Shown piece by piece: positions 2,177 through 40,636 of a stretch of DNA of 45,366 bases. Location: positions 1-45,366 of the forward strand of contig JANXSR010000189.1 of NCBI GenBank assembly GCA_025352625.1, given 5' to 3'. Made by a program: the position numbers and the translations under genes. Below the pieces are notes generated by a model. It was given only the letters and a program-made list of their open reading frames with translations, searched no databases and had not been told where the DNA came from. The DNA comes from Ferruginibacter sp. (GTDB lineage: Bacteria; Bacteroidota; Bacteroidia; Chitinophagales; Chitinophagaceae). The stretch's first letter is position 1, and every line of letters begins with the position of its first letter.

Positions 2177-2499
2177 AATTAGCTGGTTTGATGAATAATT
2201 GAGTAATATAATTATTTATTTTAAAAATGATAAGGTCTTTGTTTAATAAATAAATCCTGCCTGCTCAATGCAGTACTAAGCGGTCGTTAATTTTATTTAC
2301 CTCTGTTGGATAAATGGATTCAAATTGGTGCAAGGGTTTCCAGCCTTTTGTTAGATATTTTTATTCAGCAATAGCTTTCGAAAGGTTGGCAACCCTGAAG
2401 TATGCAACAATTTGAAATGCACCCCTGCCCGGTTAGCAGGTAGTGGTTTATAAGTATTACATTAGTATGATAAAGCTCAGTATGACAACAGTTGTAATT

Positions 2500-4476: not shown

Positions 4477-4504
4477 GAATAATGTTTTTGTTACAAGAAA
4501 GTAA

Positions 4505-4534: not shown

Positions 4535-4565
4535 AACCCCGGCAGCCATTTTTGGTAATATAAAA

Positions 4566-4588
4566 AAAGCCGCTCAAGGAGCGGCTTT
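4566..4588 (-). terminator. Intrinsic terminator of the M1 peptidase gene
   Basis: A perfect 10-bp stem (AAAGCCGCTC against GAGCGGCTTT) with a three-base loop. On the minus strand it is followed by an unbroken T run, 20 bases after the stop codon of the M1 peptidase gene. On the plus strand the T-tract is shorter, so it may act weakly in both directions. Confidence 0.85.
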
Positions 4589-4607
4589 GGTATTTTTAAA
4601 AACGAGA

Positions 4608-6980: not shown

Positions 6981-7055
6981 AGTTCTTTTTTAGAGATTTA
7001 AAATTAACAGAAATAACATTTCATTCAAAAATGGTTTTAAATAATTGAAACTACC

Positions 7056-23246: not shown

Positions 23247-23399
23247 TTATTGCGGGCACAAACGGCAGGGGCCTACACCAGTATAGTTTGCAAATATGCC
23301 GGATGAAGGGAATCTGCTATCTAACTTGCCGCCAATACCAAAAATAACGTAGCCCGAAGCCGGAGACATAACAGGGCGGCCAACATACTGCCAGCCAAA
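23247..23399 (-). pseudogene. Out-of-frame C-terminal tail of the beta-propeller gene
   Basis: In the frame one base off from the gene at 23321-24904 the minus strand reads FGWQYVGRPVMSPASGYVIF, then GKLDSRF and NYTGVGPCRLCPQ before a TAA at 23247-23249. This is a natural continuation after AVST in the upstream frame if a single T is added to the TTT run near 23397-23399. The tail supplies a seventh propeller blade plus a Cys-containing end. An almost identical tail sequence at 26878-26991 confirms that this frame was once coding. Confidence 0.8.
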
Positions 23400-24904
23400 G
23401 TGGATACAGCATGATTTTTCATTGTTAAAATATTATGCATAACAATGTTTGCTGCGGGTACTCCTAAATTGGTTGCATTGGTAGAAAAGGCTACCCAACT
23501 TCCATCAAATGAAATGGCAATTTTTTCACCCTGCCCAATTGGGCTGTCGCCATTGCCCTGCTTGCCATCATTGGTATTGCTAACCATAATGGTAGTGTTG
23601 GTAGTAATATCGTATACAAAAACATCCTGGTAATTGTTAGCATCGCCGGGCACCATATTGGTTGCGGTAGTGGCAAAAGCAATGTAGCGGCCATTTCCCG
23701 AGATAGCAGGAGACACAACCCTGTTAGCACTTTCATTGCCCTGCTCCCTTTCTTTTCCATCAGCAGTAAGGCTTACTCTTTTCAGTAAGGCTTTATTTTT
23801 CTCCCATAAAAAAATATCCCAAATACCATTGTTGTCATTTGGAACCAACGTAGAAGTATGGGAGTAAAAAGCAATTCGGTTACCATCCTGTGAGATAGAA
23901 GGTTTAGAACCGCCGCCACCTTTGTGAGCTAATGGATCTATGCTGATCATAATAGTAGTTCCCCTTTGAAGGTCTCGTAAAAAGACATTGTTATTTGAAA
24001 CTCCTTTTTCTGTTAATGAAATATTGCTTGCAGTAGATGTAAATGCCACCATGTTTCCATCACCGGAAATAGAAGGCTCATAACTTTCTGCATTGGCTTC
24101 TTTACCACCTTCACCAATACTTACTGTTTCAATTTTATTGGTAACAGCATGCCAAACAAAAATATCCCGTATACCATTTTTATCAGTCTCTACTAAATTA
24201 CTGGAGTAAGATTCAAAAGCAACAGCAGAACCGTCGGCAGCAATTGCGGGTGCAAAGCTATCGCCATTGCCTTCTATTCCATTTGCTGCAGCGCTTATTA
24301 ACTTGGTAACGCCGGTATTGCGGTCACGCAAAAAAATCTGGCGGTGTTTTCCCGGCGAGCCTGCAAAGCCTGCAGATGAGGAAACAAACACTACATATCG
24401 GCCATCTTCGCCAGCAGCACCACTAATATCTGCATCACCACTTTCATAAAAAGTACTGAAGGTAGCGTCGTTGGAACTGCGGCTTATCAGGTCATAAGTA
24501 AAATCGCAACCAACCCTGATAGCGTTGGCATCTTTAGGCATTGTTCCTGCACCTCCAGCATATACGTTGGCGGTTTTACCGGCAGGAATATTTTTGAGTG
24601 TAACGGAAAATTTGGTGCTGTCCTTTAGCGGGGCTGGAAAATTAAAAGCCATATTGCTAAACGCTTCGCCACTTTTTTTGGGTGCTGATAAAATGAGGTC
24701 ATTTTTACCATTGTACTGCACTGTTAGTGTTGTGCCTGATGGAGCTCCCAGCTTTCCATTCAGCAAGGTGCCACCGCCTGCGCCTGGATTTGAATTTTTA
24801 TAAGCGGTAACATTGCTAACAGTTTTTTTTGTTTTAACTGACGGTTGCGCATCTGTTGCATTTACAACAAAGCAAAGCAAAACAAAGCCTGGTATTTTTT
24901 TCAT
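23321..24904 (-). CDS. Secreted PD40/TolB-like beta-propeller, frameshifted at 3' end
   Basis: A 527-residue exported protein with a signal peptide (MKKIPGFVLLCFVVNATDAQ), a glycine-rich N-terminal beta domain of about 110 residues, then six repeated WD40-like PD40 blades. The repeat core is seen in PAIAADGSAVAFESYSSNL, PSISGDGNMVAFTSTASNI, PSISQDGNRIAFYSHTSTL and PAISGNGRYIAFATTATNM. TolB-type propellers are periplasmic binding or scaffold modules. The last ~20 residues (LAGSMLAALLCLRLRATLF onward) do not look like the rest and arise from a one-base deletion; the true seventh blade continues in another frame to 23247. The translation product as written is thus a truncated propeller, unless this is a sequencing error. 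Confidence 0.75.
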   Translation of the reverse strand: MKKIPGFVLLCFVVNATDAQPSVKTKKTVSNVTAYKNSNPGAGGGTLLNGKLGAPSGTTLTVQYNGKNDLILSAPKKSGEAFSNMAFNFPAPLKDSTKFSVTLKNIPAGKTANVYAGGAGTMPKDANAIRVGCDFTYDLISRSSNDATFSTFYESGDADISGAAGEDGRYVVFVSSSAGFAGSPGKHRQIFLRDRNTGVTKLISAAANGIEGNGDSFAPAIAADGSAVAFESYSSNLVETDKNGIRDIFVWHAVTNKIETVSIGEGGKEANAESYEPSISGDGNMVAFTSTASNISLTEKGVSNNNVFLRDLQRGTTIMISIDPLAHKGGGGSKPSISQDGNRIAFYSHTSTLVPNDNNGIWDIFLWEKNKALLKRVSLTADGKEREQGNESANRVVSPAISGNGRYIAFATTATNMVPGDANNYQDVFVYDITTNTTIMVSNTNDGKQGNGDSPIGQGEKIAISFDGSWVAFSTNATNLGVPAANIVMHNILTMKNHAVSTLAGSMLAALLCLRLRATLFLVLAAS

Positions 24905-25357
24905 ACTGATGTTATTTGTTGATATAAAAATACCCCCGGTGCATGGTTGTTGTTATCCTGTAAAACAGGGAATTTTCTGCAGAATGGAAAAGAATAATGG
25001 CTATTTTTTATGCCTCTTTTAGTTTTGATACGGGCAAATTCATCTTCGCAGGCAGCTTTGCTGTCAGTAATAATTTCAGGATAACTATCACTGCCATTGC
25101 TGTAATCTTCTTTAAACGAATCGATATGTACCATTTTGCCGGTTACATTTTTGTAGAGCCGGGCTGTATAAAGGTGATAGATTGCCCGCAGTCAGCTTCG
25201 CTTCAAGCTTTTTTAAATTGTCCTGTATACGGTTAAGCGGTCATAAAAATTTTTACCACCCTGGTAATCTTAAATAGTTTTTTACAAGCGTTTGCCGGGT
25301 TGCCGGGGCTGACAGTACCGCAGGAAACAACAGTAAAGCGGATAGAATTGTACGCAT
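24901..25357 (-). pseudogene. Decayed exported-protein gene with 441-aa-family segment
   Basis: The stretch upstream of the propeller gene reads as a broken gene in at least three frames. From the ATG at 25357 comes a good signal peptide (MRTILSALLLFPAVLSAPAT) that hits a stop at 25253. Other frames continue with GGKNFYDRLTVYR and DNLKKLEAKLTAG. The final frame contains LYKNVTGKMVHIDSFKEDYS then NGSDSYPE. This last part matches AKENATDKTVHIVLFKKHYS and NGSGRYLE in the protein encoded at 27010-28335, with an 18-base identical DNA run (ACTGCCATTGCTGTAAT plus one flanking C). It is thus a recent, damaged relative of that gene. Confidence 0.7.
24925..24976 (-). promoter_or_regulatory. Shared inverted-repeat promoter element, site 1
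   Basis: The inverted repeat CCTGTAAAACAGG (plus strand, within 24955-24976) is followed on the minus strand, after exactly 22 bases, by TATTTTTA (24925-24932), a near match to the Bacteroidota TAnnTTTG element. It sits 51 bases upstream of the propeller gene's ATG. Three other copies in the window have the same spacing. Confidence 0.55.
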
Positions 25358-25380
25358 GTTTACATTTTTGATGTAAGGGT

Positions 25381-26784
25381 TTATTTAGCCAATCCATATT
25401 TTGTGTAAATGCCTGAACCGGGATAATCAGCATCCAGCAGATTTAAAATTCTTGCTCCTTTTATACACGACCAAAAGGCATGATAAGTGCGTGCCCTGCT
25501 TTCTATCATGGTGAAATGTACCTGCCAGTTAGTAGGAACAGTAAATGTTCCGGATGACTTTACCTGATTGACTTTTGCAGAACCTACCATACCTTTTACC
25601 ACCAGCAGTTTCCAGTTGTAAGTATTGCCAGCTCCAAAAACAAACTCTTCGTTACTTTGGTTCATGTTCATGCCGGCGTAATTGCCTGTGTAAACATTGT
25701 ACAGTTGCTGTATGCCGGTGAAATCACTGGTCCATTTTTGTTTAAAATCTGCTGCAGCAACGGCAAATTTGTTGTACACTTTCATATTCGCCAGTGGGTT
25801 CATCAGGTCACTATCGGTATCCCATTGTACGGTTTCGGGATCAAATTTATATTGCTGAATAAAACTGTTTTTGTCAGGCGTTACAAATTCAATCCAGCCT
25901 TCACCCTGGCGAAATAGTACTACAAAAACGTCTTTGCCGCTGCTGTTTTCTTTTGCATACCCCATGCCCAGGTAAGGCCGGTTGTAAGTACTTATGTAAG
26001 TGGTTTTATAATTTTTTAAATTACTGTATCGTGGTGCTACCAATATGTTCCATACGGCATTGGTCAATGGTGCCGGATCGGCAGCGAAAACGGTACCGTC
26101 TTTGGGGTAATGCAACAGCACTTTTATATCTCCTTTGGTTACTTCTACCCAATCTTCTTTTACAACACTTGTCCAGCCATCATCAAAATTGGTAGTGGAA
26201 AATGAATAGCCGTCGGCGCTCATATTATTTGCAGGCACAACAGGTGTTGTGGTATTGTCAGAGGTCATGCCCGTATCTGAATTTGTTGTTGTTTCCGTTT
26301 TGTTCAACTCAAGAGAGCCGAGCAACGCTTGTATAGCTTCCACATATCGTTGCTTGTTGGTGACTGCCAAAATACTAACTGACTTGCCATATCCCGTGAA
26401 GGTGGTAAGTAATGCCATTGCAGCTGCATTATTAAAAATAAATTTACCGGCTCCGCTTTTTATTTTCCATCCATCTGCTTCAACTACACTATCACTTCCG
26501 GGAGCCTCGGTTATTTTATATGGAGTAGCTGCCAACTCCTTCCAACTCTCATCAAAATCTGTCTCAGCAGTTCCTTTGGTAACGGTGCTTCTGTAAACCC
26601 CTATCTGGCACCAGCTGGTATCTTTTTTATTAGTGGTGGTATACATCACTAAATTATTTTTTGTTTCTTTTTTCCAGCCTTTTGGCGGAGTATATGTTGT
26701 TGCATCAAAGGTTTCTTTATCCTGGGCAGCAACATTATTTGTCACTAGTGTAAGACAAATAATAATTGATAAAAAATATTTCAT
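25381..26784 (-). CDS. Secreted protein with DWVEVTKG domain, family A
   Basis: A 467-residue exported protein of unknown function. The ATG at 26784 is chosen over an upstream TTG at 26814 because it gives a proper signal peptide (MKYFLSIIICLTLVTNNVAA). An N-terminal domain (about 25-160) opens with YTPPKGWKKETKNNLVMYTT and ends GKSVSILAVTNKQRYVEAIQ. A Thr/Asn-rich linker follows (about 161-190), then a C-terminal domain (about 195-467) with the motif DGWTSVVKEDWVEVTKG and LLHYP. The C-terminal domain is shared with the gene at 27010-28335, and the start of the N-terminal domain recurs in the fragment at 30388-30618. No catalytic motif is visible. Confidence 0.75.
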   Translation of the reverse strand: MKYFLSIIICLTLVTNNVAAQDKETFDATTYTPPKGWKKETKNNLVMYTTTNKKDTSWCQIGVYRSTVTKGTAETDFDESWKELAATPYKITEAPGSDSVVEADGWKIKSGAGKFIFNNAAAMALLTTFTGYGKSVSILAVTNKQRYVEAIQALLGSLELNKTETTTNSDTGMTSDNTTTPVVPANNMSADGYSFSTTNFDDGWTSVVKEDWVEVTKGDIKVLLHYPKDGTVFAADPAPLTNAVWNILVAPRYSNLKNYKTTYISTYNRPYLGMGYAKENSSGKDVFVVLFRQGEGWIEFVTPDKNSFIQQYKFDPETVQWDTDSDLMNPLANMKVYNKFAVAAADFKQKWTSDFTGIQQLYNVYTGNYAGMNMNQSNEEFVFGAGNTYNWKLLVVKGMVGSAKVNQVKSSGTFTVPTNWQVHFTMIESRARTYHAFWSCIKGARILNLLDADYPGSGIYTKYGLAK

Positions 26785-26877
26785 CTTTTTATTTTTAAGT
26801 GTTTTTGTATGCAACCCTAGCGAGGTATTTTTTATTTAACGTTAACATTAAAAGTATTACCTGGTTAAGGTTAAAAG

Positions 26878-26991
26878 CTATTGCGAACATGAGCGGCAAG
26901 GCTCAACACCGGTATAGTTGTCAAATATGCCCGGGAATGTAAACCTGCTATCCAGCTTGTCCCTCAACGCTATTGGCGATTGGTGAACGCT
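26878..26991 (-). pseudogene. Isolated remnant of a propeller C-terminus
   Basis: The minus strand reads LRDKLDSRF, then FPGIFDNYTGVEPCRSCSQ and a TAG stop. It closely matches the propeller tail GKLDSRF, SSGIFANYTGVGPCRLCPQ at 23247-23399 at both protein and DNA level. The rest of that second propeller gene is gone: the remnant lies directly between the 441-residue gene and the upstream region of the 467-residue gene. Confidence 0.75.
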
Positions 26992-27009
26992 TTAATTTTC
27001 AGCAGCTTT

Positions 27010-28335
27010 TTACTGCTGTTTTACTAATGTGAATACCGTATTTAAGCGGTCCTTTAAAATAAGCGCCCTGCCTCCTTTCACTGCTTCGAAGTAGCTGTCG
27101 TATTTTTCCGTAGCACCTTCAAAACGGTTGGTGAGTGTAATATTCCAGTTGGTAACAGTTGATTTTCCTTTATACACCTGGTTGGAGAATTTCATATTGC
27201 CCACCATTCCAGATGCGCCGGAGTGCTGGCTCTGGTAATTACTGCCAGCCAAAAAAGTAAACTCGTCGGCAGTGGATGTAGTGCTTGTACCGGCAAGGCC
27301 ACCCGTGTTTACATAATAGTAGCTAATGGATGCATAATCCGTGGTGCTCCATTTGCCGATAATATCATTTGCAGCAACAGAAAATTTATTGCGGTATTGC
27401 ATGTTGGCCGTTTTATCCCAGCCCGATTCGTCGCTGTGGTAAGCACCGAATTCGTTTTCGTAATCTGATTTTGTGGTTGATACAAATTCAAGATAGCGGC
27501 CACTGCCATTGCTGTAATGTTTTTTAAACAACACAATATGTACGGTTTTGTCTGTAGCATTTTCTTTGGCATCGGCTTCCATAAAACTGATGGATTGCCA
27601 GCTCTGGATTGTTCGCCATGCAAAATTTTGAACATTGTTGTAGCGTGGTGCTACCAGCGTGTTCCATGCTGCATAATCACTTTCTTTAAATACAGAGTTG
27701 TAGGCATCTGCAATTTTATTTGGATAATGCAGCAATATTTTCATGTTCCCTTTTGTAACTTCTACCCAATCTTGTCTCACGGTACTTGACCAGCCATCTT
27801 CCCAATTAGTGGTAATAAAGGTGAACGCGGTTGCGGAAGAAACGGTGCTGTTACTAGCGGTTACAATTGCCGTTGTTGCCACCGCTGCGGTGTTGCTTTT
27901 TGGCGACACCCTATTTGTATCGGCTTTAATTGTTATTAGTTCTGTTTCACCAAAATAAATTTCATGCGTTTTCTTTTGAGCCTGAAAATGAGCCATCAGT
28001 TTTTTGTTATTTTGCCGTAACCACAAAAAATCTGTCTCACCTTCAATAGAAGACACCTCCCAATTTGCTTTTTGCAATGCCGCTTTTAAAGAGTCCATTG
28101 TAAAGGATACCGGAACATACAGCACTTCAACATTTTTAACGGCTAAGCCTTTTTTTTGGCTCACCATTTCAAGTAAAATTTTAGCTCCGCCTTTAAACAG
28201 CGAGCGCCTATCTTGCTTACTGCCCATTGGTAATTGTATGCCGGTAGACGAGGAGCTATCAATTGGAGCCACCTTATTTTGTGCAGTTCCTTTCATAACA
28301 ACTATCAAACAAAGGGTAATGCAAATTAATTTCAT
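27010..28335 (-). CDS. Secreted protein with DWVEVTKG domain, family A paralogue
   Basis: A 441-residue exported protein (signal peptide MKLICITLCLIVVMKGTAQ) of unknown function. The first ~135 residues form an independent domain (KILLEMVSQKKGLAVKNVEV; THEIYFGETELITI) unlike that of the neighbouring paralogue. After an Ala/Ser/Thr-rich linker (about 140-170) comes the shared C-terminal domain with DGWSSTVRQDWVEVTKG (about 180-196), LLHYP, WNTLVAPRYNN and VKGGRALIL. The combination of different N-terminal modules with one shared C-terminal domain suggests domain shuffling among secreted proteins. The putative promoter at 28423-28474 lies just upstream. Confidence 0.75.
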   Translation of the reverse strand: MKLICITLCLIVVMKGTAQNKVAPIDSSSSTGIQLPMGSKQDRRSLFKGGAKILLEMVSQKKGLAVKNVEVLYVPVSFTMDSLKAALQKANWEVSSIEGETDFLWLRQNNKKLMAHFQAQKKTHEIYFGETELITIKADTNRVSPKSNTAAVATTAIVTASNSTVSSATAFTFITTNWEDGWSSTVRQDWVEVTKGNMKILLHYPNKIADAYNSVFKESDYAAWNTLVAPRYNNVQNFAWRTIQSWQSISFMEADAKENATDKTVHIVLFKKHYSNGSGRYLEFVSTTKSDYENEFGAYHSDESGWDKTANMQYRNKFSVAANDIIGKWSTTDYASISYYYVNTGGLAGTSTTSTADEFTFLAGSNYQSQHSGASGMVGNMKFSNQVYKGKSTVTNWNITLTNRFEGATEKYDSYFEAVKGGRALILKDRLNTVFTLVKQQ

Positions 28336-28422
28336 GTGTTATGTTTTTTTGTAGATAATTAAATGCTGATTTGTGTGGTGCCTGTGTAATGGTGTAACCG
28401 GCAACATACAAAATCATTTTCT

Positions 28423-28474
28423 CAAATATAGTTGCCCGTTCAGCATTTTAGCATCCTGTAAAAAGTGGATTTTT
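28423..28474 (-). promoter_or_regulatory. Shared inverted-repeat promoter element, site 2
   Basis: ATCCTGTAAAAAGTGGAT (from 28453) is followed on the minus strand after exactly 22 bases by TATATTTG (28423-28430), a full match to TAnnTTTG. The right half-site is degenerate (GTGG for CAGG). It lies about 118 bases upstream of the ATG of the 441-residue protein gene and its upstream end touches the stop codon of the preceding gene. Confidence 0.6.
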
Positions 28475-30365
28475 ATTGGGTAGTAATTTTTACATTGCTG
28501 ATGTAAACGTTGATATTGTCGGCATCAGTGGTGGTGTTGGTCCAGTTAATAAAATTAAATTTTGTAGCAGCGGGCAAACCGCAGGTTACACATTTATCGC
28601 CATACCCCATTTTGAAATCAGTTGAAGCCGCTACCTTTTTATCGTTAATTAAAATAGTAACCACACCAGCTTTTACTTTTAACGTTACATGAACACTTGT
28701 TTTTTTATTGGTGAATTCCCGTAAAGGGTACTCGTACGAAATACCTTCCTGGCCGTTTTGCGTATTGGCAGAAGGAGCGCTATTTATTTTTACAGATAAC
28801 TCTCCCCTGTAATTATTATTATCATAATCGGCTTCATTGCCCGAAGCGATTTTAACGGTTATAGTTGTACCGTTTCCACCCGATGTTTCCACGCCATCTG
28901 TTGTAGCATTGCGGGTGTTTAATGACAGTGTTGCAGCGCCACCGGTACGGGAGCTAAAACCGCCGTCAGTTGCCATGTCATATTCCAGCGTAAAATTTTC
29001 AGGTAGTGGCTTTTTTAAAAGAGAAGGGTTTACCGGTGTACCATAACCCAGCTTCAGCCATTTCCCTTCCTGGTTTTTAATTGTGCTTACAGTGGCATGT
29101 TTTCCAAACCGTTTAAAATACCAGTTGGATGGGTCGCCGCCTTCTGTACCCGAAGAAAAATCGTCGAAGAAAAACGCATCCGGGTACCTAGAAGAAGCGC
29201 TGGCTGCAGGCTTGAGTGCTATGGCATTCTTTTTTCTGTAACCATCCAGCCTCGCTTTTAATTGTTCTTCATTCGCAGGTTTGTATGCTACACCTTTTAC
29301 CTTTTCCGGATCAAAGAAATAGTTGTAGATGTAATCATAATTCAAATTCTGGGTAATGGCTGTGTACATTTCATACAACTGGTTACCATTTTCTTTTGTG
29401 TTATATCTAAACCACACCGAGATCCATTGCGGCTGGGCTGTTTTACATTTCTCCATTACATCTGCCGGAACTTTGTATAATGGAAAATATTGTTTTCTGC
29501 TTTTTTCAATATCGCTGATGGCGAAAGGGTCCATATCTCCAAAAAAATCGCTGATAATCGTTGGCTGCATGTTGTGTAAAACTGCAGGTTCGTTCAGGCG
29601 GTCTTTATATTTTTCTTTCCATTTGTGTATGGCATTGCGGTAACGGTCAAATTCTTTTTGCTGATATTGATAAGCATCTTCCCTGCTTTTTGTATCCGAC
29701 CACTGGCTGTTGATCTGTTCTTTTTTATTTTGTAACTCCTTGTCAAGCGAAGCTTCTGATGCATCAAGATATTCGCCCATGGTTACTGCTACAAATGGTA
29801 ATTTATTGTTGGGAGCAAGAAACACACTATGCAGTTCATTGATATGCGTAATGTATTTATAAACGTTTGGATGAATTCTGGGGTCGGCACCTTTGTGCAT
29901 CTCCCAATCAAAATAGCCATCGGGAGGCCAGGTAAAATAATAATTGCCGGAGCCATTCAAAAATTTCACTGCATAACTGGCAGGGATATTATTGGCCGTG
30001 ATGCCGAAGGGTGTATTTTCTTCATCAATGGGTTTAAAATGTCCTTTTTCATCCAGGTACTCTTTTGAAAAAGTTACATTCCATACCATAAAATATACAC
30101 CATACCGCACGCTGAAATTTTGCCGGGTTACAGTACCCAGGCCACCTACGGGCGTGTAAGTTTTTTTCATCCACTCTACAAACAGGTTGGTAATGTCTAT
30201 TCGTTTTTTTTGTACCGGGTCTGTAGTTGGTTTTAAAGAGTTATCGAATTTATTGTTGCTCCACCAGCCAATCACGCTGTCTTGTATGCGCTGTTCAGCC
30301 GTGAGTTGTGCAAAGGCTATTGCACCGATAGAAGTGAACAATAATGTGAATACAATCTTCTTCAT
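28473..30365 (-). CDS. Secreted protein with C-terminal lectin-like domain, family B
   Basis: A 630-residue exported protein (signal peptide MKKIVFTLLFTSIGAIAFAQ). The N-terminal region includes LFVEWMKKTYTPVGGLGTV (61-79) and PFVAVTMGEYLD (190-201), followed by a charged helical, coiled-coil-like stretch (about 203-255). Family motifs CKTAQPQW (307-314) and YDYIYNYFFDPEKVKG (343-358) come next. From FFFDDFSSG (398) onward the protein is beta-rich and resembles a concanavalin A-like lectin/LamG domain that binds glycans. A Cys pair occurs late (KCVTCG). A paralogue with the same layout is at 32140-34005 and a relative lacking the lectin domain is at 30756-32012. The function is unknown. Confidence 0.75.
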   Translation of the reverse strand: MKKIVFTLLFTSIGAIAFAQLTAEQRIQDSVIGWWSNNKFDNSLKPTTDPVQKKRIDITNLFVEWMKKTYTPVGGLGTVTRQNFSVRYGVYFMVWNVTFSKEYLDEKGHFKPIDEENTPFGITANNIPASYAVKFLNGSGNYYFTWPPDGYFDWEMHKGADPRIHPNVYKYITHINELHSVFLAPNNKLPFVAVTMGEYLDASEASLDKELQNKKEQINSQWSDTKSREDAYQYQQKEFDRYRNAIHKWKEKYKDRLNEPAVLHNMQPTIISDFFGDMDPFAISDIEKSRKQYFPLYKVPADVMEKCKTAQPQWISVWFRYNTKENGNQLYEMYTAITQNLNYDYIYNYFFDPEKVKGVAYKPANEEQLKARLDGYRKKNAIALKPAASASSRYPDAFFFDDFSSGTEGGDPSNWYFKRFGKHATVSTIKNQEGKWLKLGYGTPVNPSLLKKPLPENFTLEYDMATDGGFSSRTGGAATLSLNTRNATTDGVETSGGNGTTITVKIASGNEADYDNNNYRGELSVKINSAPSANTQNGQEGISYEYPLREFTNKKTSVHVTLKVKAGVVTILINDKKVAASTDFKMGYGDKCVTCGLPAATKFNFINWTNTTTDADNINVYISNVKITTQ

Positions 30366-30387
30366 AAAAAAGTGTTGGTAAGTTTTA

Positions 30388-30618
30388 TTATATTTTTTTC
30401 CTTCTCAGAATACCTGTTAAACTCCAGGTAAAAAGCTTGGTGATATGGCACGAAACGCCTTTTTTACTGTCAATAATTACATAGGTAAGGTGGTTAGCTT
30501 TTACTTCTTTATTCCACCCTGCTGGTGGGGTATAACTAACCAGGTCGCAGGTTGCGTTTTGTGTGCAGGTAAGTGAAGTGACCATAACTAACCGGGTGCA
30601 AAAAAATATTTTATTCAT
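30388..30618 (-). pseudogene. Truncated copy of family A N-terminal domain
   Basis: A 76-codon frame begins with a signal-like sequence (MNKIFFCTRLVMVTSLTCTQ), then LVSYTPPAGWNKEVKANHLT, clearly related to TTYTPPKGWKKETKNNLVMY in the 467-residue family A protein. It breaks off after about 50 residues of the domain and ends in unrelated basic sequence (TGILRRKKI). It looks like a truncated gene copy, though it could still yield a small secreted peptide. It is 22 bases upstream of the family B gene and follows promoter site 3 closely. Confidence 0.6.
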
Positions 30619-30621
30619 GTG

Positions 30622-30673
30622 CTAAAATAAATGACTTAACTATTTTTTAATGTCCTGTAAAAACAGGATTTTT
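30622..30673 (-). promoter_or_regulatory. Shared inverted-repeat promoter element, site 3
   Basis: The clearest copy: TCCTGTAAAAACAGGA is a perfect inverted repeat (30653-30668) with a flanking A/T tract. On the minus strand it is followed after exactly 22 bases by TATTTTAG (30622-30629), one base off TAnnTTTG. It would drive the truncated gene at 30618 and the family B gene behind it; a start there would lie at or near the first ATG. Confidence 0.6.
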
Positions 30674-30755
30674 TAGGTTGCCGATGAAAGTTGCAACAAT
30701 GTGCACATTTTTTGTAGCCCATTTTAATATGAGTTGTTTTTAAATGCAGCATTAA

Positions 30756-32012
30756 TTACCTGTTTAAAAGAGCTTCCAGGGGCGTTAGTGCACCAGGTTG
30801 CTTAATTAGCTTAGCAACCTTCTGCATATGAGGGTAACTACCCTTTGGCAAGTGCACCAAGATAAGCTGCGGAACATCCGCACTAAGTGATTTATTGAAA
30901 TAAGCTGGATTTAACGATGCCACATAAGTTCTCGTTTCGTCTTCTTTGGCATACGTAAATACGTCAAGTTTATCTACATATTCCCTAATCCCTTTGCCGG
31001 TATAGGAACTATAACCATAGAATCCACTAAAGCTTAGAGATAGCCATTCCTGCGGCTTTTTTAAATATTCCTGCAACACTTCTTTCGCTTCTGTTGTTTC
31101 TTTTTCTATTCGGGCTATATGTTTATCAAATTTTTGTCTTTCAGTTTCCCATGTTTCTATTAACCTTTTACGGTAAGGAGCCATTTGTTCAGGAGAAGAA
31201 GTTTTTGAATTATCAATACGTTTGAGTTGGTCATCTAAATTTGCCTTGTTGGCGGCTTCGGCAGCCGGAGTATATGCCAGCTTTGCAGAAGCCATCTCCC
31301 TGTTTTTATAGTCATCCACGTCTTTGAGCAATTGTTGTAAATATTCTTTGCGGGTTATGGGAAGAAATACAGGTTGATCGCTGTTGCGGATGATAATGAA
31401 ATCGTGTTTGGATTTATAGATGGTGTCATAAACATTTGACATTGCGATCTGCTCGTAATAATCAAATTTTCCTTCAGTTCGATTCTTTTCAAACATCACA
31501 AAAGTATATTTCCCATTGATGGTAAATACACCCACATCCGTGCATAGCGGAGAGAAAAAAACATTATTAAAATACACTGCAGCAAATGAACCACTTTCGC
31601 CTTCTGTAAAGATTTCATTACGGTTCTCATAACAGTAATAAGCATAAAATCGCATTTTAGAAGTGTAACATCCTTTGATGCCTGTCGCCTTAAAAAAGTG
31701 CTCTGTAAATCCAGATGCGTAATCAAAAAAATAATCGTTGGAATAAGCCAGTTTAGCGCCGGTAAAGTTTTTTAATATTCCTTTTATCCAATTTTCTGCA
31801 GTGGTTAATTGAGGTTTAATTTTGGCAATGCTGATGTTAGCTTTTGGATCTTCATAAGAACGGCTATAAACATCCTGAAACCTAACAGATTCGGAAGGTT
31901 TATTTGCAGCCCTTGTATTGCAATCCTGGCTAAAGCAAGCCTGCATTATGAAAAGGTAAAACAGGGTAAGCAATGAATTGCGAAGCAGGGGCAGCATTGT
32001 TGACTTTTTCAT
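30756..32012 (-). CDS. Secreted family B-related protein without lectin domain
   Basis: A 418-residue exported protein with an N-terminal signal (hydrophobic LLTLFYLFIMQACFSQ). Its core matches the family B layout: a beta-rich N-terminal part, then PVFLPITRKEYLQQLLKDVD, the equivalent of PFVAVTMGEYLD in the 630-residue protein, followed by a charged helical stretch (about 235-320) and a beta-rich segment ending ADVPQLILVHLPKG. It stops where the paralogues continue into the lectin-like domain. The N-terminus contains several cysteines (DCNTRA, GCYTSK, YCYENR). No enzymatic motif is seen. A weaker copy of the shared dyad lies about 97 bases upstream of its ATG. Confidence 0.65.
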   Translation of the reverse strand: MKKSTMLPLLRNSLLTLFYLFIMQACFSQDCNTRAANKPSESVRFQDVYSRSYEDPKANISIAKIKPQLTTAENWIKGILKNFTGAKLAYSNDYFFDYASGFTEHFFKATGIKGCYTSKMRFYAYYCYENRNEIFTEGESGSFAAVYFNNVFFSPLCTDVGVFTINGKYTFVMFEKNRTEGKFDYYEQIAMSNVYDTIYKSKHDFIIIRNSDQPVFLPITRKEYLQQLLKDVDDYKNREMASAKLAYTPAAEAANKANLDDQLKRIDNSKTSSPEQMAPYRKRLIETWETERQKFDKHIARIEKETTEAKEVLQEYLKKPQEWLSLSFSGFYGYSSYTGKGIREYVDKLDVFTYAKEDETRTYVASLNPAYFNKSLSADVPQLILVHLPKGSYPHMQKVAKLIKQPGALTPLEALLNR

Positions 32013-32108
32013 ACAATTACATTTATTGTTGTTGCTTTAATATTCTCTTTTGTAACGCCTGTCGTTCCATAATAAGTTATGAGATTTGCGTAATTTAAAA
32101 GGAATGCA

Positions 32109-32130
32109 ATACTGTAAAACAGAGATCTTA
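32109..32130 (-). promoter_or_regulatory. Weak copy of the shared dyad, site 4
   Basis: ACTGTAAAACAGA contains the inner inverted repeat CTGTAAAACAG but lacks the outer bases, and no TAnnTTTG-like octamer sits at the 22-base spacing. It lies 97 bases upstream of the 418-residue protein gene. It may be a decayed copy. Confidence 0.3.
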
Positions 32131-32139
32131 TGCCTCTTG

Positions 32140-34005
32140 TTAATTCTTAATTATCTTGATGTTACTGATATAATATTTATCATTCTTTCCCGAATTATAA
32201 CTGTAAAATGACAGCGCATTGAATAAGTGAGCTGCCGGAATAGCTTTTTCATATTCCGCTATTTTAGTATCATCAATAAACACCTGCAACATTTCTTCTT
32301 TCTTTTTAATAGTTACAGTAATGCGGTTATTTTTTTTGTTGTTGGAAAAGCCTGGAGCAACAAAGCTATTAGCGCCGTTTGAATAACCCGGCGGCGACGG
32401 GAATTTTGTTTCCAGCGACACATCTCCATCTCTTCCATCATAGCCGGGGCGAAGTCCCAAATCCAGCCATGATTCTGCATTACCAGCGGTAGTCTCTTTG
32501 GCCAGTTTGAAATGTAATTGTTTGGCACCCCAGGTAAAATTTTGAGCAACTACTACATCGTAACTCAACGTAAAATTTTGTGGTAATGGGGTTTTAATCT
32601 GACTGGGTGTTAATGTATAATCTGCCACTACAGCCCAGTTACCTTCTAAACCATCCAGATTGTTAATAATACTGCGGCTGCCAGCAGCACCTATCTTACT
32701 TTTCCAGTCAATAGGTATTTTACCAACAACTGATGTAGAAAAATCGTCAAAGAAAAAGACGTTTTTATCTGTATTGTTTTTCTTAAATGCTTCTGATGCC
32801 TCAGTAACTACTACTGCTTCTTTGTAGGTAGGAGAACGACGTGGTTGATAGGGTTGGCCTTTTACTTTCTCAGGATCAAAGAAAAAATTATAGACATAAT
32901 CAAAATTAAAATTGTTGAGGACGGATTCGTGTAAGTGGATATTATACGGTTGGTTAGGCATACTCATTGTCCACTTGATTACAAGCCACTGGGGCTGGTC
33001 TGTTTTGCAAAGTTCTTTAGCGGGCTTTGACACTTTCAAAATAGGAAAGGTGGTGTGAATACCTTCCTTTCCATAAATATCTTTATTGTCGAAAAAATCA
33101 TTGTAATCTTCGGTTGCATTTATAAAGCTCCAAATGTCAATCTGTGTTGAGCGTTCCAATTCAGCAATATCATTCCATTTGCTTTTATATTTTTCTTTAA
33201 GGCGGGCAAGATTTTTTTGAGCCTTTGCTAAATTTTCCGCTGATACAGCTGTTACTTTTTGCCAGGCCGGTAATTGCTTTTCGGCTTGCGTAAAAAACTC
33301 GCCAATCGTTATTTTTTCAAAAGGCAGTTCTTTGTCTTTAGTTATTATAACAACATAGCCATCATGTGGTATGTAAAAATGTTTATACGCTGATAGATTT
33401 TTGTTATTAGAAAATCCCATTAAATCACTTGCAGGTTTGTCATCAGTATTATATCCTTTTGAGTTGCCGGAAAAATCAAGTAGCATAAAATAATATGCTT
33501 CTGTACTTGAAATAAAAGGTACCGGCTTGCTGATTGATTCCAGTCCATTGGCTTCAATACGCCAAATATCTGACAGGTTATTTTGTGGTACATATTTCCC
33601 CTGTGCATCTTTTTTTAAAAACATATAGATTTTTGATAATGCACCATACAAATGAGGCAGCGCACTCAGGTTCATATTTATTGCATTGCCCAATTGGCTG
33701 TTTGTGCCGCTGAATTCAGGTATGTAATTTTGATAATAGCCAGCATCACCAAGGCAGCCTTTGGGTAGATAAGATTGTTGCATCCATTCCACAAACTTCT
33801 GGCTATAGCCTATTTGTTTGGCACTGTAAATTCTATTGCCAAGTTGTTTTCCTTTTGGCGCTTCGGTATGTTTGCGAATAGTCATCCAGCCGATATCAAT
33901 GTCAGCAATGCTCTCAAGTTTGAAGCCAATGCGGTCAACGTACACAGGCTGTGCCTGCGCTGATAAACCAGCTGCTATAATCGCCAGGAGTAGTGCTTTT
34001 CTCAT
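32140..34005 (-). CDS. Secreted protein with C-terminal lectin-like domain, family B paralogue
   Basis: A 621-residue exported protein (signal peptide MRKALLLAIIAAGLSAQAQ), paralogous to the 630-residue gene at 28473-30365. Matching blocks in the same order are KFVEWMQQSYLPKGCLGDA, PFEKITIGEFFTQAEKQL with a following helical stretch, CKTDQPQWLVIKW, FDYVYNFFFDPEKVKG, and FFFDDFSTSVVG at the start of the lectin-like domain. Identity is moderate, so the duplication is not recent. The upstream region (34006-34185) shows only a partial likeness to the shared promoter dyad. Function unknown; glycan or surface binding is plausible from the C-terminal domain. Confidence 0.75.
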   Translation of the reverse strand: MRKALLLAIIAAGLSAQAQPVYVDRIGFKLESIADIDIGWMTIRKHTEAPKGKQLGNRIYSAKQIGYSQKFVEWMQQSYLPKGCLGDAGYYQNYIPEFSGTNSQLGNAINMNLSALPHLYGALSKIYMFLKKDAQGKYVPQNNLSDIWRIEANGLESISKPVPFISSTEAYYFMLLDFSGNSKGYNTDDKPASDLMGFSNNKNLSAYKHFYIPHDGYVVIITKDKELPFEKITIGEFFTQAEKQLPAWQKVTAVSAENLAKAQKNLARLKEKYKSKWNDIAELERSTQIDIWSFINATEDYNDFFDNKDIYGKEGIHTTFPILKVSKPAKELCKTDQPQWLVIKWTMSMPNQPYNIHLHESVLNNFNFDYVYNFFFDPEKVKGQPYQPRRSPTYKEAVVVTEASEAFKKNNTDKNVFFFDDFSTSVVGKIPIDWKSKIGAAGSRSIINNLDGLEGNWAVVADYTLTPSQIKTPLPQNFTLSYDVVVAQNFTWGAKQLHFKLAKETTAGNAESWLDLGLRPGYDGRDGDVSLETKFPSPPGYSNGANSFVAPGFSNNKKNNRITVTIKKKEEMLQVFIDDTKIAEYEKAIPAAHLFNALSFYSYNSGKNDKYYISNIKIIKN

Positions 34006-34185
34006 TTTAATTTTATTATTGTTAGTACTTTATTCCACAAACGGCATGAAGAAAGACTGGCCGAAAACAACATTTGTAAAAAGACATTTAACCCAACTAA
34101 AAAAAAGAAACGATCAATTTTTTTTACTTACTCCATCGTCATAAATTCTTATTGAAAATGTATTACGCTATAATCGTTTTAATCA

Positions 34186-35193
34186 TCAATATTTAATTAC
34201 ACTTTTGGTTTTATCTTTTATTTTATTAAAGAACGATTTCTTCTCTTTTGTTTTCGGGGTTGTAACGCTATCGGCCTGGCTGGCGGTCGCAGGATTGTTA
34301 ACCACCCCGGGCTGGCTTTGATTGTCGTTACTTGTTGACGGCGCTGCATTGTTATTTGACGGCGTTGTATTGTTGGCTGCTGGTGCGGCGCTGTTATCGT
34401 CCATTTTTATTTTATTCTTCGGGATGATCTCTCCTTTAAGCCATTCTTTTACAAAGACCGTTACCACATCATTTACTTCTTTACCAGCACGATAAATCGC
34501 TTTCCACTTTAAGTTTTTCTTTTCATAAACAGGGTTAACAAATTTTGCCCTGTCACCAGTAGTGGTAAGCTTTGCAGTAAAATCAACCGTGGCAACTAAC
34601 TGCAGGTATTCCTGTAATTTTTTCTTTACCAATATTGTCGGGTCGGAGGGATAGGCTTTTTCCCAAAGCTCCTTATCCGGAAAAGGCTTTTTTGCAGTCT
34701 CCAGCATGGCATCCAAACTTTTTTGATCAGCATCCAGTAGTAACTGTTGCTCTGCTACGTACTTGGTATCTGTTTTATAATTCTTTATATTTTTACCATA
34801 CACAATGATATTTCCCCTGAGCGTGGCTATCGTTTTCCCATCTGCCATCAATGGTAAAGCTTCTTCCCTGCGTTTATTATAATCAGCAATAAACGCTTCA
34901 CTGCTTACATATTTTTTTACATAGTCGCACAGCTCTTTAGCGACGCCGGTTTTATCTCCCGAAATAATCGACGGCAGCATTTTTACATAAGGTATTTTAA
35001 AAGATTCATCTTCGGATTCATCGCTGTTACTGACTGGCCCGGTTGAAAAACTGCCGACAAAATTGTTAAGGATAAACCATTGAGCAGACTTTTGTTCCAT
35101 GCCGAGCCGTTCAATAATTTCGTTTGTAATTTTAAAGGCGCTCATTACAAAAAGCAAGGTAATGATTGCAATAAAAACTTTTTTATTTTTCAT
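34186..35193 (-). CDS. Exported protein with low-complexity linker, unknown function
   Basis: A 335-residue protein with an N-terminal hydrophobic segment (VFIAIITLLFVMSAFKI) that may be a signal peptide or a membrane anchor. The middle (about 60-250) is largely helical and charged. A disordered Asn/Pro/Ser/Ala-rich linker (about 258-308; e.g. AANNTTPSNNNAAPSTSN) leads to a lysine-rich amphipathic tail (KKSFFNKIKDKTKSVIKY). I recognise no family. It starts 14 bases after the stop of the large TPR gene upstream, so both are almost certainly in one transcript. Confidence 0.65.
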   Translation of the reverse strand: MKNKKVFIAIITLLFVMSAFKITNEIIERLGMEQKSAQWFILNNFVGSFSTGPVSNSDESEDESFKIPYVKMLPSIISGDKTGVAKELCDYVKKYVSSEAFIADYNKRREEALPLMADGKTIATLRGNIIVYGKNIKNYKTDTKYVAEQQLLLDADQKSLDAMLETAKKPFPDKELWEKAYPSDPTILVKKKLQEYLQLVATVDFTAKLTTTGDRAKFVNPVYEKKNLKWKAIYRAGKEVNDVVTVFVKEWLKGEIIPKNKIKMDDNSAAPAANNTTPSNNNAAPSTSNDNQSQPGVVNNPATASQADSVTTPKTKEKKSFFNKIKDKTKSVIKY

Positions 35194-35207
35194 TGTTTAA
35201 GATTTTA

Positions 35208-37688
35208 TCAGTTAAAAATATTTTTTCCGGCAGCAGGTGTGGCTGGCGCCTGCATGCCCGAACTTAAAGACAGCCGTAAACCATTTTGTTGTATATCTTT
35301 TAATATTGCCGGTGCGTTTTCCATTTCATCGACCAGCTGCATAATTTTGTCCATATCTTGTTTAAACAATCGCTTCTCATCCATCTGATCCATTTCCTTC
35401 ATAATTTTTTGCATATTGTTTTCCCGTTCTTTCATCTCTTCATATTGATCCATTTTATTAACCTCCTCCATCATTTTGTCTAACGATTTTTTCAATGCTT
35501 CCTGTCCGGCGATTTTCTGTTCCAACTCTTTTATTTTTTCTATCACATGTTCATACGCTTCCAGCTCTTTCACCTTTTTCATCATTCTTTCTAATTCCTT
35601 TTTTAAAATATCTTTTGATGATTTTACATCGTCGCAATCGGAACTCATCATTTTTTTAAGCAGGTCATTCGCCAGCATATCTTTTAAGCGGGGCAGCGGG
35701 GTCAGTTCGTCATCAGCACTTGCTTTAGGTTTGTTGTTGATTTTTTTCAGCATATCTGTCAGCCTGTTATCGATGGCTTTGTTAACGGCAGCGTCGCTTG
35801 GTACGGGTGTTGTTCCGTTTTTTGCATTGATCCTTTTCATGGCATTCAGCAAACCATTATCCATCGCTTTATCAACATCTGCGGAGGAAGGTGTAACACT
35901 GCCATCGGCAGTTTTTGCAGAAAAGCTATTGCCAGGTTGCGCTATTGAATTATTACCAGCTCCATAAGCGATAGAAGTGTTGGGCACTTTAACAGCCGCA
36001 TTTTTTTTAATGCCGAGGTTATTATTATCAAAGTTTTTTACCGCATTGGAAAGCTGCTGCCACTCACTTCCCGTGGGTATGCTTACTACAGCCGGGCAAT
36101 AAAAGTTAGGGACTTCCGGCATAGGCACATTCATTTTTCCGTCAGATTTTTGGTTGACGCATGTTTTGGCTATGGCTTCCTGATCGCTCAATGCATCACT
36201 ATAGAACCCCTTTAATGCGCCGGTCCAACCGACGCATTCTGTGAGTACACTATTTTTCGGGTTGCCAGCAATATACCACGACCAGGTGCAGAACGCATTT
36301 AGCCACATCCTGAATTCCTCAATACGCTGTGCATGAAACGCCCTTATAAGTGGGTTAACATGCTGCAGAAATTCATTGTTCCTTCTGTCGTAATCCGGGC
36401 ATTTATCATTTTCGCCCGACTTGCTGCTGATCTTTCTTTGCTGATCAATCTCTTTTCGTAATGCTTCATATTGTTTCTGTTTTTCCTCGCTCCAGGTTTT
36501 CATGTAGTACATCAGTATTTTTTCAACAATCACTGCAGTCTTACTCATCATATTCAATCCTTTAATACTTTCATTGGCCATTGTTTTCACAAATTCTTCT
36601 TCGCCTTTATCCTGCAGATTATCCAGTTCTTTACCGGCTGCATTCTGCAGGCCTTCTATTTTTTTGTCCAATGCTTCCAGCATATCACCATAGCTGTTTT
36701 TTATCCTCATATCATTTTCATAACCATTTACATTATCTGATAAATCAGGAATCTTAATCCAGTCCTTTGGAAAATATTCATAGATGGTGATGGCTTTTTT
36801 TATTTTATCAAAATCTATTTTTTCAATACGGCTCTGTCCATTATTATTATTCAACAATTTTTCTGTAAAGGGGTTGGCATTAGATTCCAACGATTTAACA
36901 TAGGCATCATTTGCTTTAATTGGGTCGCCAAAAAGTTCCTCCATTAAACCACCGCAATCCATTGCTTCGGTATGGCCAGGGTTGATGCGGATAGCCATAC
37001 CCGAATAAAGGCGGGCACTGTCTGTTTCACCCAGCCCCAGCCATGCGTATGCCATATTGTTTAATACCGTACTGTTAGAAGGCGCATCATCTGTCAATTT
37101 ATTTAACACAGGTATGGCTTGTTCGGGATATCCATATTGTGTAAGTAATGAAGCCAGGTTATTTTGTGCGTTTAAATTACCGGCATCTGCCTGTACAGAC
37201 TTTGCAGCAATTGCCATGGCAGCCTGCGGATGCCCCTGTAACATGCATAGCACGGCAGCATTTTCCAACTGTGCTGAAGTAGCCGCTTTTGCAGCGATTG
37301 ATTTAATCAATGCAATTTCTGCAGCATCTCCTTTTGCAATAATTTTATTGTACAGGTTGCCGGCATAGGGTGATACCTCGGCAGCGGTTAATTTCTTTTT
37401 GGATGTAGCATTTATTTTTGAAACATCTTTTTTAACTACCAATTGCTTGTTGGCGGTAAATTCAGTGTAGTCAGCTGTTCTAGCATTCTGATCCATCAGC
37501 GCCGGCATAATTCCACCCATCATTTTTTTCATCTCCGCTTTTTCTTCAGCACTCATATCCTTCGTCGCTTCCTCCATCATCTTATCCATCTCTTTTTGCC
37601 CGGGCGCTTTTTGTTTTGGTTTAGGCTGCGCAATAGAAGTTTGAAAAAAAAGAATCAATAGACCGGTGATTAAAAAAAACTTTTTCAT
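35208..37688 (-). CDS. Large exported TPR and coiled-coil protein
   Basis: An 826-residue protein. The ATG at 37688 is chosen over 37706 because it gives a signal peptide (MKKFFLITGLLILFFQTSIA). A Met/Lys/Glu-rich segment follows (about 30-60), then TPR-like repeats (about 130-260; NLASLLTQYGYPEQAIPVLN, NNMAYAWLGLGETDSARLYS), a long mixed region with several cysteines, and an internal imperfect repeat (DVDKAMDNGLLNAMKRINAK against AVNKAIDNRLTDMLKKINNK). A C-terminal coiled coil of about 130 residues is made of Lys/Glu/Met heptads. It is the first gene of the minus-strand array, divergent from the histidine kinase across a 348-base spacer. Probably a periplasmic assembly scaffold. Confidence 0.7.
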   Translation of the reverse strand: MKKFFLITGLLILFFQTSIAQPKPKQKAPGQKEMDKMMEEATKDMSAEEKAEMKKMMGGIMPALMDQNARTADYTEFTANKQLVVKKDVSKINATSKKKLTAAEVSPYAGNLYNKIIAKGDAAEIALIKSIAAKAATSAQLENAAVLCMLQGHPQAAMAIAAKSVQADAGNLNAQNNLASLLTQYGYPEQAIPVLNKLTDDAPSNSTVLNNMAYAWLGLGETDSARLYSGMAIRINPGHTEAMDCGGLMEELFGDPIKANDAYVKSLESNANPFTEKLLNNNNGQSRIEKIDFDKIKKAITIYEYFPKDWIKIPDLSDNVNGYENDMRIKNSYGDMLEALDKKIEGLQNAAGKELDNLQDKGEEEFVKTMANESIKGLNMMSKTAVIVEKILMYYMKTWSEEKQKQYEALRKEIDQQRKISSKSGENDKCPDYDRRNNEFLQHVNPLIRAFHAQRIEEFRMWLNAFCTWSWYIAGNPKNSVLTECVGWTGALKGFYSDALSDQEAIAKTCVNQKSDGKMNVPMPEVPNFYCPAVVSIPTGSEWQQLSNAVKNFDNNNLGIKKNAAVKVPNTSIAYGAGNNSIAQPGNSFSAKTADGSVTPSSADVDKAMDNGLLNAMKRINAKNGTTPVPSDAAVNKAIDNRLTDMLKKINNKPKASADDELTPLPRLKDMLANDLLKKMMSSDCDDVKSSKDILKKELERMMKKVKELEAYEHVIEKIKELEQKIAGQEALKKSLDKMMEEVNKMDQYEEMKERENNMQKIMKEMDQMDEKRLFKQDMDKIMQLVDEMENAPAILKDIQQNGLRLSLSSGMQAPATPAAGKNIFN

Positions 37689-37706
37689 ACCTGTTAATTT
37701 ATACAT

Positions 37707-38036
37707 GCACTGTTTATTAGAAAAATTACTGCAAGCTGTTGTATACTATTTTATTGCTGAAGTAAAATGATCTTTTTTCGTATTGTTATTATTTTATCTT
37801 TACTGCAAATGCAGGATGTATTATGTCAAAATTTATTCAATTAGCATATCCGTTTTGCATTGGTGAACAAGAGGAAGCGACGATGGCAATGCTGTATTTC
37901 ATTGTGCTTAATTTCGTTTTGTAAAAATGTCATATTTATAGCAACGGACGTATCCCTGAAAAACAGGATTTTTAATGCACAAAAAATCATGGAAAAAAGG
38001 GATAGCATATTTTTTTTAAGTAATTAGTTTTACAAG
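37707..38036. other. Divergent regulatory region, array versus two-component system
   Basis: No coding sequence is visible. The spacer separates the first array gene (minus) from the histidine kinase (plus). It contains shared promoter site 5 at 37922-37973, directed toward the array, which implies a leader of about 230 bases for the TPR gene. The rest is AT-rich. No terminator or riboswitch was recognised. Confidence 0.5.
37922..37973 (-). promoter_or_regulatory. Shared inverted-repeat promoter element, site 5
   Basis: CCTGAAAAACAGG followed by an AT-rich tract (plus strand, within 37952-37973) has CATTTTTA on the minus strand at exactly the 22-base spacing (37922-37929). The octamer is a weak match to TAnnTTTG. 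The element faces the array but also lies 64 bases upstream of the histidine kinase start, so one bound protein could affect both directions. Confidence 0.45.
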
Positions 38037-40019: not shown

Positions 40020-40636
40020 CAAAAATAAAGGTATTTATTGTAGACGATCATTACATGGTGATTGAAGGGATACGGTCACTTCTGCAAAATGAGGAGGGAA
40101 TAGAATGGTCTGGTCATGCTACCAATGCTGCATCCTGCCTGGCTTTTTTGCAACAGCAATTGCCTGATGTAATTTTAATGGACATCAATCTTCCAGACAA
40201 AAACGGAATAGACCTTTGTAAGGAAGTGAAAGAAAAATATCCCTCCGTTTTTATATTGGGTCTTAGCACATTTAACCAGCAAAGCTTTATACAAAAAATG
40301 ATGAGTAATGGAGCCTCAGGCTATGTATTAAAAAATGCCACGCAGGAAGAACTGATGGAAGCTATTGAAACTGTATCAAAAGGAAAAACCTATTTAAGTG
40401 ACGAGGTTGCAGCCTCTTTGCGAAAAGAAGTACCATCTGAAATACCAGTTGTAACAAGACGTGAAAAAGAAGTATTGTTGTTGATTGCAGATGGCCTTAC
40501 CAATGCAGAAATTGCTAAACAGCTTTTTTTAAGTACCACCACTGTTGATACCCATAGAAAAAATTTACTTGCAAAATTTGATGTAAAAAATACAGCCTCT
40601 TTAATTAAAAGAGCAGCACAGTTGCAATTGCTTTAA
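40016..40636 (+). CDS. NarL/LuxR-type response regulator
   Basis: A 206-residue regulator: receiver domain (about 1-120) with acidic pocket Asp10/Asp11, phospho-acceptor Asp56 in LMDINLP, switch Thr85 and Lys106, then a C-terminal LuxR-type helix-turn-helix (about 143-205; VTRREKEVLLLIADGLTNAE, TTTVDTHRKNLLAKF). It begins at an ATG overlapping the kinase stop codon by four bases. NarL-type regulators usually bind inverted repeats as dimers and activate from sites next to the promoter, which fits the dyads found in the array. It converges on the next gene with only 8 bases between stop codons. Confidence 0.93.
   Translation: MTKIKVFIVDDHYMVIEGIRSLLQNEEGIEWSGHATNAASCLAFLQQQLPDVILMDINLPDKNGIDLCKEVKEKYPSVFILGLSTFNQQSFIQKMMSNGASGYVLKNATQEELMEAIETVSKGKTYLSDEVAASLRKEVPSEIPVVTRREKEVLLLIADGLTNAEIAKQLFLSTTTVDTHRKNLLAKFDVKNTASLIKRAAQLQLL

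Follow-up and report, generated by a model that had tools for sequence, protein, structure and literature searches.

A 16-bp inverted repeat (dyad) at a fixed distance from a Bacteroidota-type -7 box recurs beside a TPR histidine kinase/NarL-type response regulator operon in Ferruginibacter sp. and in many of its relatives. We consider it highly probable that the dyad is the site of a dimer of that regulator (40016..40636), through which it would activate its own operon together with a small regulon of genes for secreted-looking proteins. The window, which is the whole stretch of DNA analysed (45,366 nt), corresponds to the entire contig C128; the assembly totals 4.92 Mb and is divided into 480 contigs. 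In the proposed mechanism the TPR histidine kinase at 38037 would partner the NarL-type response regulator at 40016, whose dimer would bind the dyad just ahead of the -33 element (roughly -51 to -36) and from this one fixed position would activate housekeeping-type promoters in a class II-like manner. Six promoters located in the genome carry the site, all before proteins that look secreted by their first residues, and back-to-back dyads in the divergent region would enable the regulator to drive its own kinase-regulator operon. The features of the window are as follows.

23321..24904, minus strand: predicted target of E1, a PD40 beta-propeller-like protein with a signal-peptide-like start
24925..24932, minus strand: E1 -7-like box TATTTTTA, 20 nt before the start codon of 23321..24904
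24956..24971, minus strand: dyad E1, TCCCTGTTTTACAGGA
27010..28335, minus strand: predicted target of E2, with a signal-peptide-like start, paralog of 25381
28423..28430, minus strand: E2 -7 box TATATTTG
28454..28469, minus strand: dyad E2, TCCACTTTTTACAGGA
28473..30365, minus strand: probable downstream target of E3, 630 aa, with a signal-peptide-like start
30388..30618, minus strand: probable 76-codon remnant resembling the N-terminus of 25381, first frame after E3
30622..30629, minus strand: E3 -7-like box TATTTTAG, ending 3 nt before the first start codon
30653..30668, minus strand: dyad E3, perfect, TCCTGTTTTTACAGGA
35208..37706, minus strand: predicted target of E4, a TPR protein with a signal-peptide-like start
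37922..37929, minus strand: E4 -7-like box CATTTTTA, about 215 nt before 35208..37706
37953..37968, minus strand: dyad E4, which is dyad A of the divergent kinase/target region, TCCTGTTTTTCAGGGA
37987..38002, plus strand: dyad B, TCATGGAAAAAAGGGA, which faces the kinase operon and is separated from dyad A by 34 bp
38025..38032, plus strand: kinase-promoter -7-like box TAGTTTTA, 22 bp after dyad B and 4 nt before the start codon
38037..40019, plus strand: sensor histidine kinase (TPR, HisKA_3 and HATPase)
40016..40636, plus strand: NarL/FixJ-type response regulator (receiver and GerE HTH), the proposed dyad binder

The initial annotation reported near-identical elements at 24955, 28453, 30652 and 37952, each separated by exactly 22 bases from an octamer similar to TAnnTTTG. 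The coordinates hold for the 16-bp cores, all on the minus strand, and so does the spacing, which at all four sites consists of the core, one base and 22 bases. The word near-identical was generous, as E1 to E4 carry 3, 2, 0 and 3 mismatches to its core; one of the four octamers fits TAnnTTTG in full, but the others miss it by 1, 1 and 2 positions, an imperfection in three of four boxes that is expected of activated promoters and also of chance. The window contains a fifth core match (2757, 2 mismatches) that falls within the frame 2443..4476 and lacks a box, with at most 3 of 6 positions fitting at offset 22. That the arrangement is not accidental, as had been claimed, is borne out by these five core matches (3 mismatches allowed): 100 shuffles averaged 0.62, and none of them reached 5. 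A composite profile based on 91 promoters from elsewhere, the window and the own-genome locus L119 being excluded, scores E1-E4 at 30.4-38.9, the next place in the window being the second dyad (5.6) and the best of 30 shuffled windows reaching 15.7; among the 67 regions behind the dyad profile that underlies this composite, one was the E4 region. With the own-genome control and the spacing shuffles given below, these comparisons led us to reject chance as the origin of the dyads, and a known structured RNA was rejected because the window has no Rfam match at gathering scores.

In the organism's own genome (4.92 Mb) a search for the dyad alone, with 2 mismatches allowed, gives 23 places and its reversed control 4, and outside the window the box is present at only one of the dyad places with up to 2 mismatches. 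A looser composite, relaxed to admit a second site on contig C116 that a profile scan had already found, gives 6 places at 0-1 mismatch, namely the four in the window and two on C116 (L119, 568 and 2409, plus strand), and 12 further places at 2 mismatches; the control gives 11 in all. The genes behind the two C116 sites encode proteins of 155, 328 and 1190 aa with secreted-like starts, the longest having matches to DUF7452 and Peptidase_M19. Because composite places at 0-1 mismatch are so few, the system resembles a small regulon, with some six target promoters, and not a genome-wide repeat; an element scattered over the genome at no fixed spacing, the observation that was to have overturned the initial annotation, is not what the own genome contains. 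The assembly is 93% complete by a tool's estimate, so more dyad promoters may exist. The initial annotation had overlooked the second dyad toward the kinase, the two C116 sites and the 76-codon remnant behind the 30652 promoter.

The link between the dyad and the regulator at 40016, at the outset a guess from nearness, is now backed by comparative association. Several of 20 loci with relatives of the TPR protein had a dyad of the same spacing beside regulator homologs. A search of 195 genomes of the family for dyad plus box (at most 1 mismatch) yielded 41 places, spread over 31 genomes, where the reversed control yielded 7. Of 20 regions followed up, 10 have the site next to a homolog of the kinase or regulator (L108, L109, L111-L117, L127), 5 have it elsewhere (L118, L119, L123, L124, L126) and 5 have no site under the limits of the script. 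The regulator itself has matches at 85 places in these 195 genomes; regions around 78 were taken, the other seven being among the weakest, and were joined by two more distant matches to make 80 loci, from which L110 (kinase cut by the locus end) and 12 loci with no kinase frame called were removed to leave 67. A dyad profile was learned on the 67 kinase 5' regions without the box. At a threshold score of at least 19 it places the dyad in 54 of the 67, pointing away from the kinase in 53, and 13 have no dyad at that score; 0 of 670 shuffled kinase 5' regions reach it. A control with paralogous NarL pairs, in which 0 reached score 19, comprised 4 regions only and was replaced, being too small, by a survey of intergenic regions (kinase homologs at blastp E <= 1e-10, profile score at least 19). 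In this survey, which is in-sample in that it uses the loci of the profile training, the dyad is found in 51 of 71 kinase-homolog 5' regions versus 25 of 479 other regions, the latter divided into 8 of 95 divergent, 17 of 281 tandem and 0 of 103 convergent gaps. The 25 include regulator genes with no neighbouring kinase frame (L114, L160, L162, L164), two of the window sites and other solo sites.

The spacing is equally regular. A box fitting at least 4 of 6 positions stands at offset 22 in 40 of 52 dyads picked without regard to the box and is missing there in 12; the next-best count, 13, belongs to offset 21, a one-base shift from 22. With at least 5 of 6 positions required, offset 22 has 30 of 52 (next-best offset, 2). 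When the window is left out, the box is at 22 in 29 of 50 dyads, and in 24 of 35 genera when counted by genus; in 2000 shuffles no offset had more than 6. In 34 of 53 ortholog sites the first ATG, reading frame disregarded, lies 14-33 nt past the place of the box. Covariation of the dyad arms is modest, 1.58 of 3 variable pairs being complementary versus 1.28 in shuffles (sd 0.10, highest 1.62 of 5000).

A scan of contigs from named genomes provided 80 loci, of which 58 were held out after removal of 19 duplicates of earlier loci (12 of them with the site) and 3 that were too short; a few of the 58 are near-identical to each other, and L262 and L265 share one site. The dyad is present in 47 of these 58 loci and the best dyad points away from the kinase in 47 of 47. 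The box is at offset 22 in 35 of 46, with at least 5 of 6 positions in 14, and the next offset, 21, has 11. The combined dyad-and-box test is passed by 37 of the 58 held-out loci and failed by 21, among which L256, L282, L284 and L314 have the box one base nearer, and others, for example Niabella and two Arenibacter loci, show nothing. A box at offset 21, either a spacing variant or drift, is seen in L180, L256, L282, L284, L311 and L314. The passing loci come from Flavobacteriaceae (Lutibacter, Gelidibacter, Mariniflexile, Maribacter and one of three Arenibacter), Prolixibacteraceae, Cytophagales (Chryseolinea and a MAG), Pedobacter and Chitinophagaceae, and include the named strains Gelidibacter algens, Mariniflexile maritimum, Flavihumibacter petaseus, Chryseolinea serpens and Pedobacter sp. 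AK013. Dyad plus box also occurs in 4 of 10 loci from other families of the same order (L240, L241, L243, L244). Homologs of 40016 have the dyad beside them, at the same spacing, at many loci of the Chitinophagaceae, and some records from the Flavobacteriaceae, Prolixibacteraceae, Cytophagales and Sphingobacteriaceae show it as well. A close regulator is sparse across the phylum, with 4 of 296 genomes at E <= 1e-66, all in the window's own family.

A site held rigidly beside the promoter is expected of an activator that touches RNA polymerase (class II), and the dyad stands next to the -33 element at one such distance (40 of 52; 35 of 46 held-out). With the -7 box at -12 to -5, as in a flavobacterial start-site map (PMC9723704), the dyad would span about -51 to -36, with its centre near -43.5. 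The dyad therefore abuts the -33 element, but does not cover it as the initial annotation had it; in 19 of 53 ortholog sites the 17-mer ends on a base that is also the first of a TTG. The class II activator that was postulated fits this geometry, and on this reading binding and activation are predicted. The same regulator could instead repress, the dyad being an operator from which it blocks RNA polymerase at -33: the site does abut that element, and repression is possible at autoregulated two-component operons. We regard repression as improbable, because a repressor is less expected than a polymerase-touching activator to keep an exact spacing to the box across genera, and because the target-side boxes are weak (at least 5 of 6 positions in 14 of 46 held-out loci versus 29 of 38 on the kinase side), as at activator-dependent promoters.

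The kinase and regulator have matches to PF00072, PF00196, PF07730 and PF02518, all above the Pfam cut-offs, and are thus a HisKA_3 kinase and a NarL/FixJ regulator by their domains. Their operon is divergent from the E4 target, and the intervening region carries dyad B in addition to dyad A; E1-E3 have no second dyad. Among 97 dyad-plus-box promoters, which were chosen with the box at 22 and were for that reason excluded from the spacing test, 39 have a second dyad 18-75 bp further upstream (score at least 10), comprising 38 of the 60 with a kinase or regulator homolog in divergent orientation versus 1 of 37 others, and a kinase-side box stands at offset 23 from the second dyad in 29 of the 39. 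In the held-out loci the second dyad is present in 38 of the 47 with a dyad, at a dyad-dyad distance of 36-38 bp in 32 of 38, and on the kinase side 30 of 38 have the box at 23 while 10 have it at 22, counts that can overlap. Since the core, one base and 22 bases equal the core and 23 bases, target and kinase promoters share their geometry. The kinase promoter of the window deviates, in that the spacer after dyad B is 22 bp, 23 being commonest elsewhere, and the start codon of the kinase follows 4 nt after the box. The distances from the boxes of E3 (3 nt to the first start codon) and E4 (about 215 nt to its gene) likewise speak against the reading. The putative site of the regulator is therefore found at its own promoter with target-promoter geometry, and with two back-to-back dyads, one per promoter, the kinase-regulator operon is very probably itself under the control of the regulator. 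By the argument used for target activation, the mirrored kinase promoter points to positive autoregulation.

The doubled dyad often lies beside the same sensor and regulator genes in relatives, and is thus very probably the landing site of that regulator. Another regulator, encoded elsewhere, might bind the dyad and control both the operon and the targets, and paralogs of the regulator are indeed many; we find this very improbable, since the dyad tracks the kinase and regulator homologs across genera and into other families and classes, is doubled beside their operon, and has arm bases that vary together with recognition-helix residues (1-2 independent changes, with receiver columns close). 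This joint variation was measured over 53 sites and 183 variable columns in three tests of association (with arm pair 3+12, with arm pair 2+13 and with the four bases together), in which residue 178 of the regulator ranks 1st, 3rd and 1st, residue 175 ranks 4th, 2nd and 2nd, and residue 179 ranks 14th, 53rd and 20th. Residues 175, 178 and 179 align with K179, K182 and N183 of DevR/DosR, the three core DNA-binding residues of DosR (PMC5999986). The ranks support the regulator at 40016 as the binder, but shared descent can also produce ranks like these. Asn at 178 goes with A at base 12 in 16 of 16 cases, and Asp or Glu with G in 34 of 37, a link that reflects 1-2 independent changes on the tree; receiver-domain columns 91 and 94 score close behind residue 178, and E1-E3 break the rule by having A at base 12 despite D178. 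A strict code between residue 178 and base 12 was rejected on these grounds, and the link is kept as a hint. That the dyads are intrinsic terminators is scarcely credible: E1 and E3 do read on the plus strand as a short stem followed by T, a terminator scan does flag 24956 and 30652 on that strand, and the region has 23 terminator-like places versus 16.8 (sd 4.6) in shuffles, but these readings of E1 and E3 are antisense to the neighbouring genes, orientation and distance to the -7 box are fixed, and the dyad at score at least 19 is found in 0 of 103 convergent gaps of related loci, the expected setting of 3' ends, on which count we rejected the terminator reading, as the initial annotation had.

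Between 23321 and 37706, 6 of 8 proteins have no Pfam match at E <= 0.001, and members of two paralog pairs, 25381/27010 and 28473/32140, are among the genes behind the sites. A regulon of secreted proteins was anticipated by the initial annotation; secreted-like starts, judged by eye for the signal-peptide-like starts of the target proteins, do occur behind all six promoters, from which secretion itself is presumed. The 76-codon frame at 30388..30618 matches the N-terminus of 25381 with E = 5e-8 within the window's proteins and is probably a truncated paralog or gene remnant, and 34186..35193 lies 14 bp after the E4 target 35208..37706. The protein of 25381-26784 and its homologs in many loci share an N-terminal domain of about 180 aa followed by differing C-terminal parts; the predicted fold of this family (mean pLDDT 77) has weak matches only, to PsbP and similar small domains, with a best E of 1.6e-4 and, for the best PsbP matches, a TM of 0.5-0.6 of the target. 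In L112 a giant 1947-aa CARDB protein with a Por_Secre_tail sorting domain (1886-7729) lies behind a dyad promoter, and genes of similar size (2043-2125 aa) occupy this position in L113, L114 and L116. L201, L183 and L174 have five, four and three dyad promoters per 13-14 kb locus, mostly of the arm type TCATC..ATGA, so that a local multi-promoter layout recurs. Elsewhere in the window, 11425-13413 and 13496-15481 (plus strand) are tandem paralogs, 43% identical, the second with a sulfatase domain.

The nearest described system encountered is FimS/FimR of Porphyromonas gingivalis, also a member of the Bacteroidota, in which the sensor kinase has periplasmic TPRs and FimR binds a promoter upstream of mfa1 and activates surface-protein genes, with no significant difference between binding with and without phosphorylation (PMC1974823, PMC11053733). 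The likeness lies in a TPR sensor kinase and a regulator at target promoters, which is predicted here; the difference is that the parts of those reports bearing on FimR mention neither a dyad nor a fixed spacing nor a divergent promoter that is doubled. The regulator at 40016 is presumed to depend on phosphorylation. By model scores the kinase falls outside FimS (NF053520, 41.3 bits at a cut-off of 600), and the pair falls outside MctS/MctR (NF052443, 140.6 vs 700; NF052445, 191.4 vs 300). DosR/DevR, NarL and VraR, which are NarL-family response regulators, have the same receiver and GerE architecture, but their half-sites differ from the window dyad and the promoter here is of the Bacteroidota -33/-7 type instead of -35/-10. 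DosR binds DNA as a dimer (PMC5999986), and where it has K182, residue 178 here is D, E or N. The housekeeping sigma promoter of Bacteroidota has TAnnTTTG at -7 and TTTG near -33 (PMC7366714, PMC9723704), and the window boxes are variants of the former; here, in difference, the -7 box is mostly weaker on the target side and a dyad is added immediately upstream of -33. In searches of open-access papers we found no description of the dyad, the spacing or the mirrored promoter, nor a defined binding site of a Bacteroidota NarL-type response regulator. NarL-family control and class II-like geometry are known in kind, and their proposed combination in a mirrored layout at Bacteroidota promoters is one that we have not found reported.

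It is possible, and we put this forward tentatively, that the pair belongs to a widespread undescribed class of Bacteroidota TPR-kinase/NarL-type systems. The class would use a portable promoter module (A-tract, dyad, 23 bp and -7 box) that is mirrored at the kinase operon (dyad-dyad distance about 37 bp) and copied before fast-changing genes for secreted proteins, paralogous systems being insulated from one another through joint change of the arm bases and of recognition-helix residues 175 and 178. For Ferruginibacter sp. and its relatives, what began as an observation on sequence alone now amounts to a regulon that can be tested, with predictions for its regulator, the site, the geometry and an autoregulatory circuit. 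It offers a route to assigning a regulator to unannotated secreted proteins, and the related loci would form a natural set for the study of joint change in a regulator and its site.
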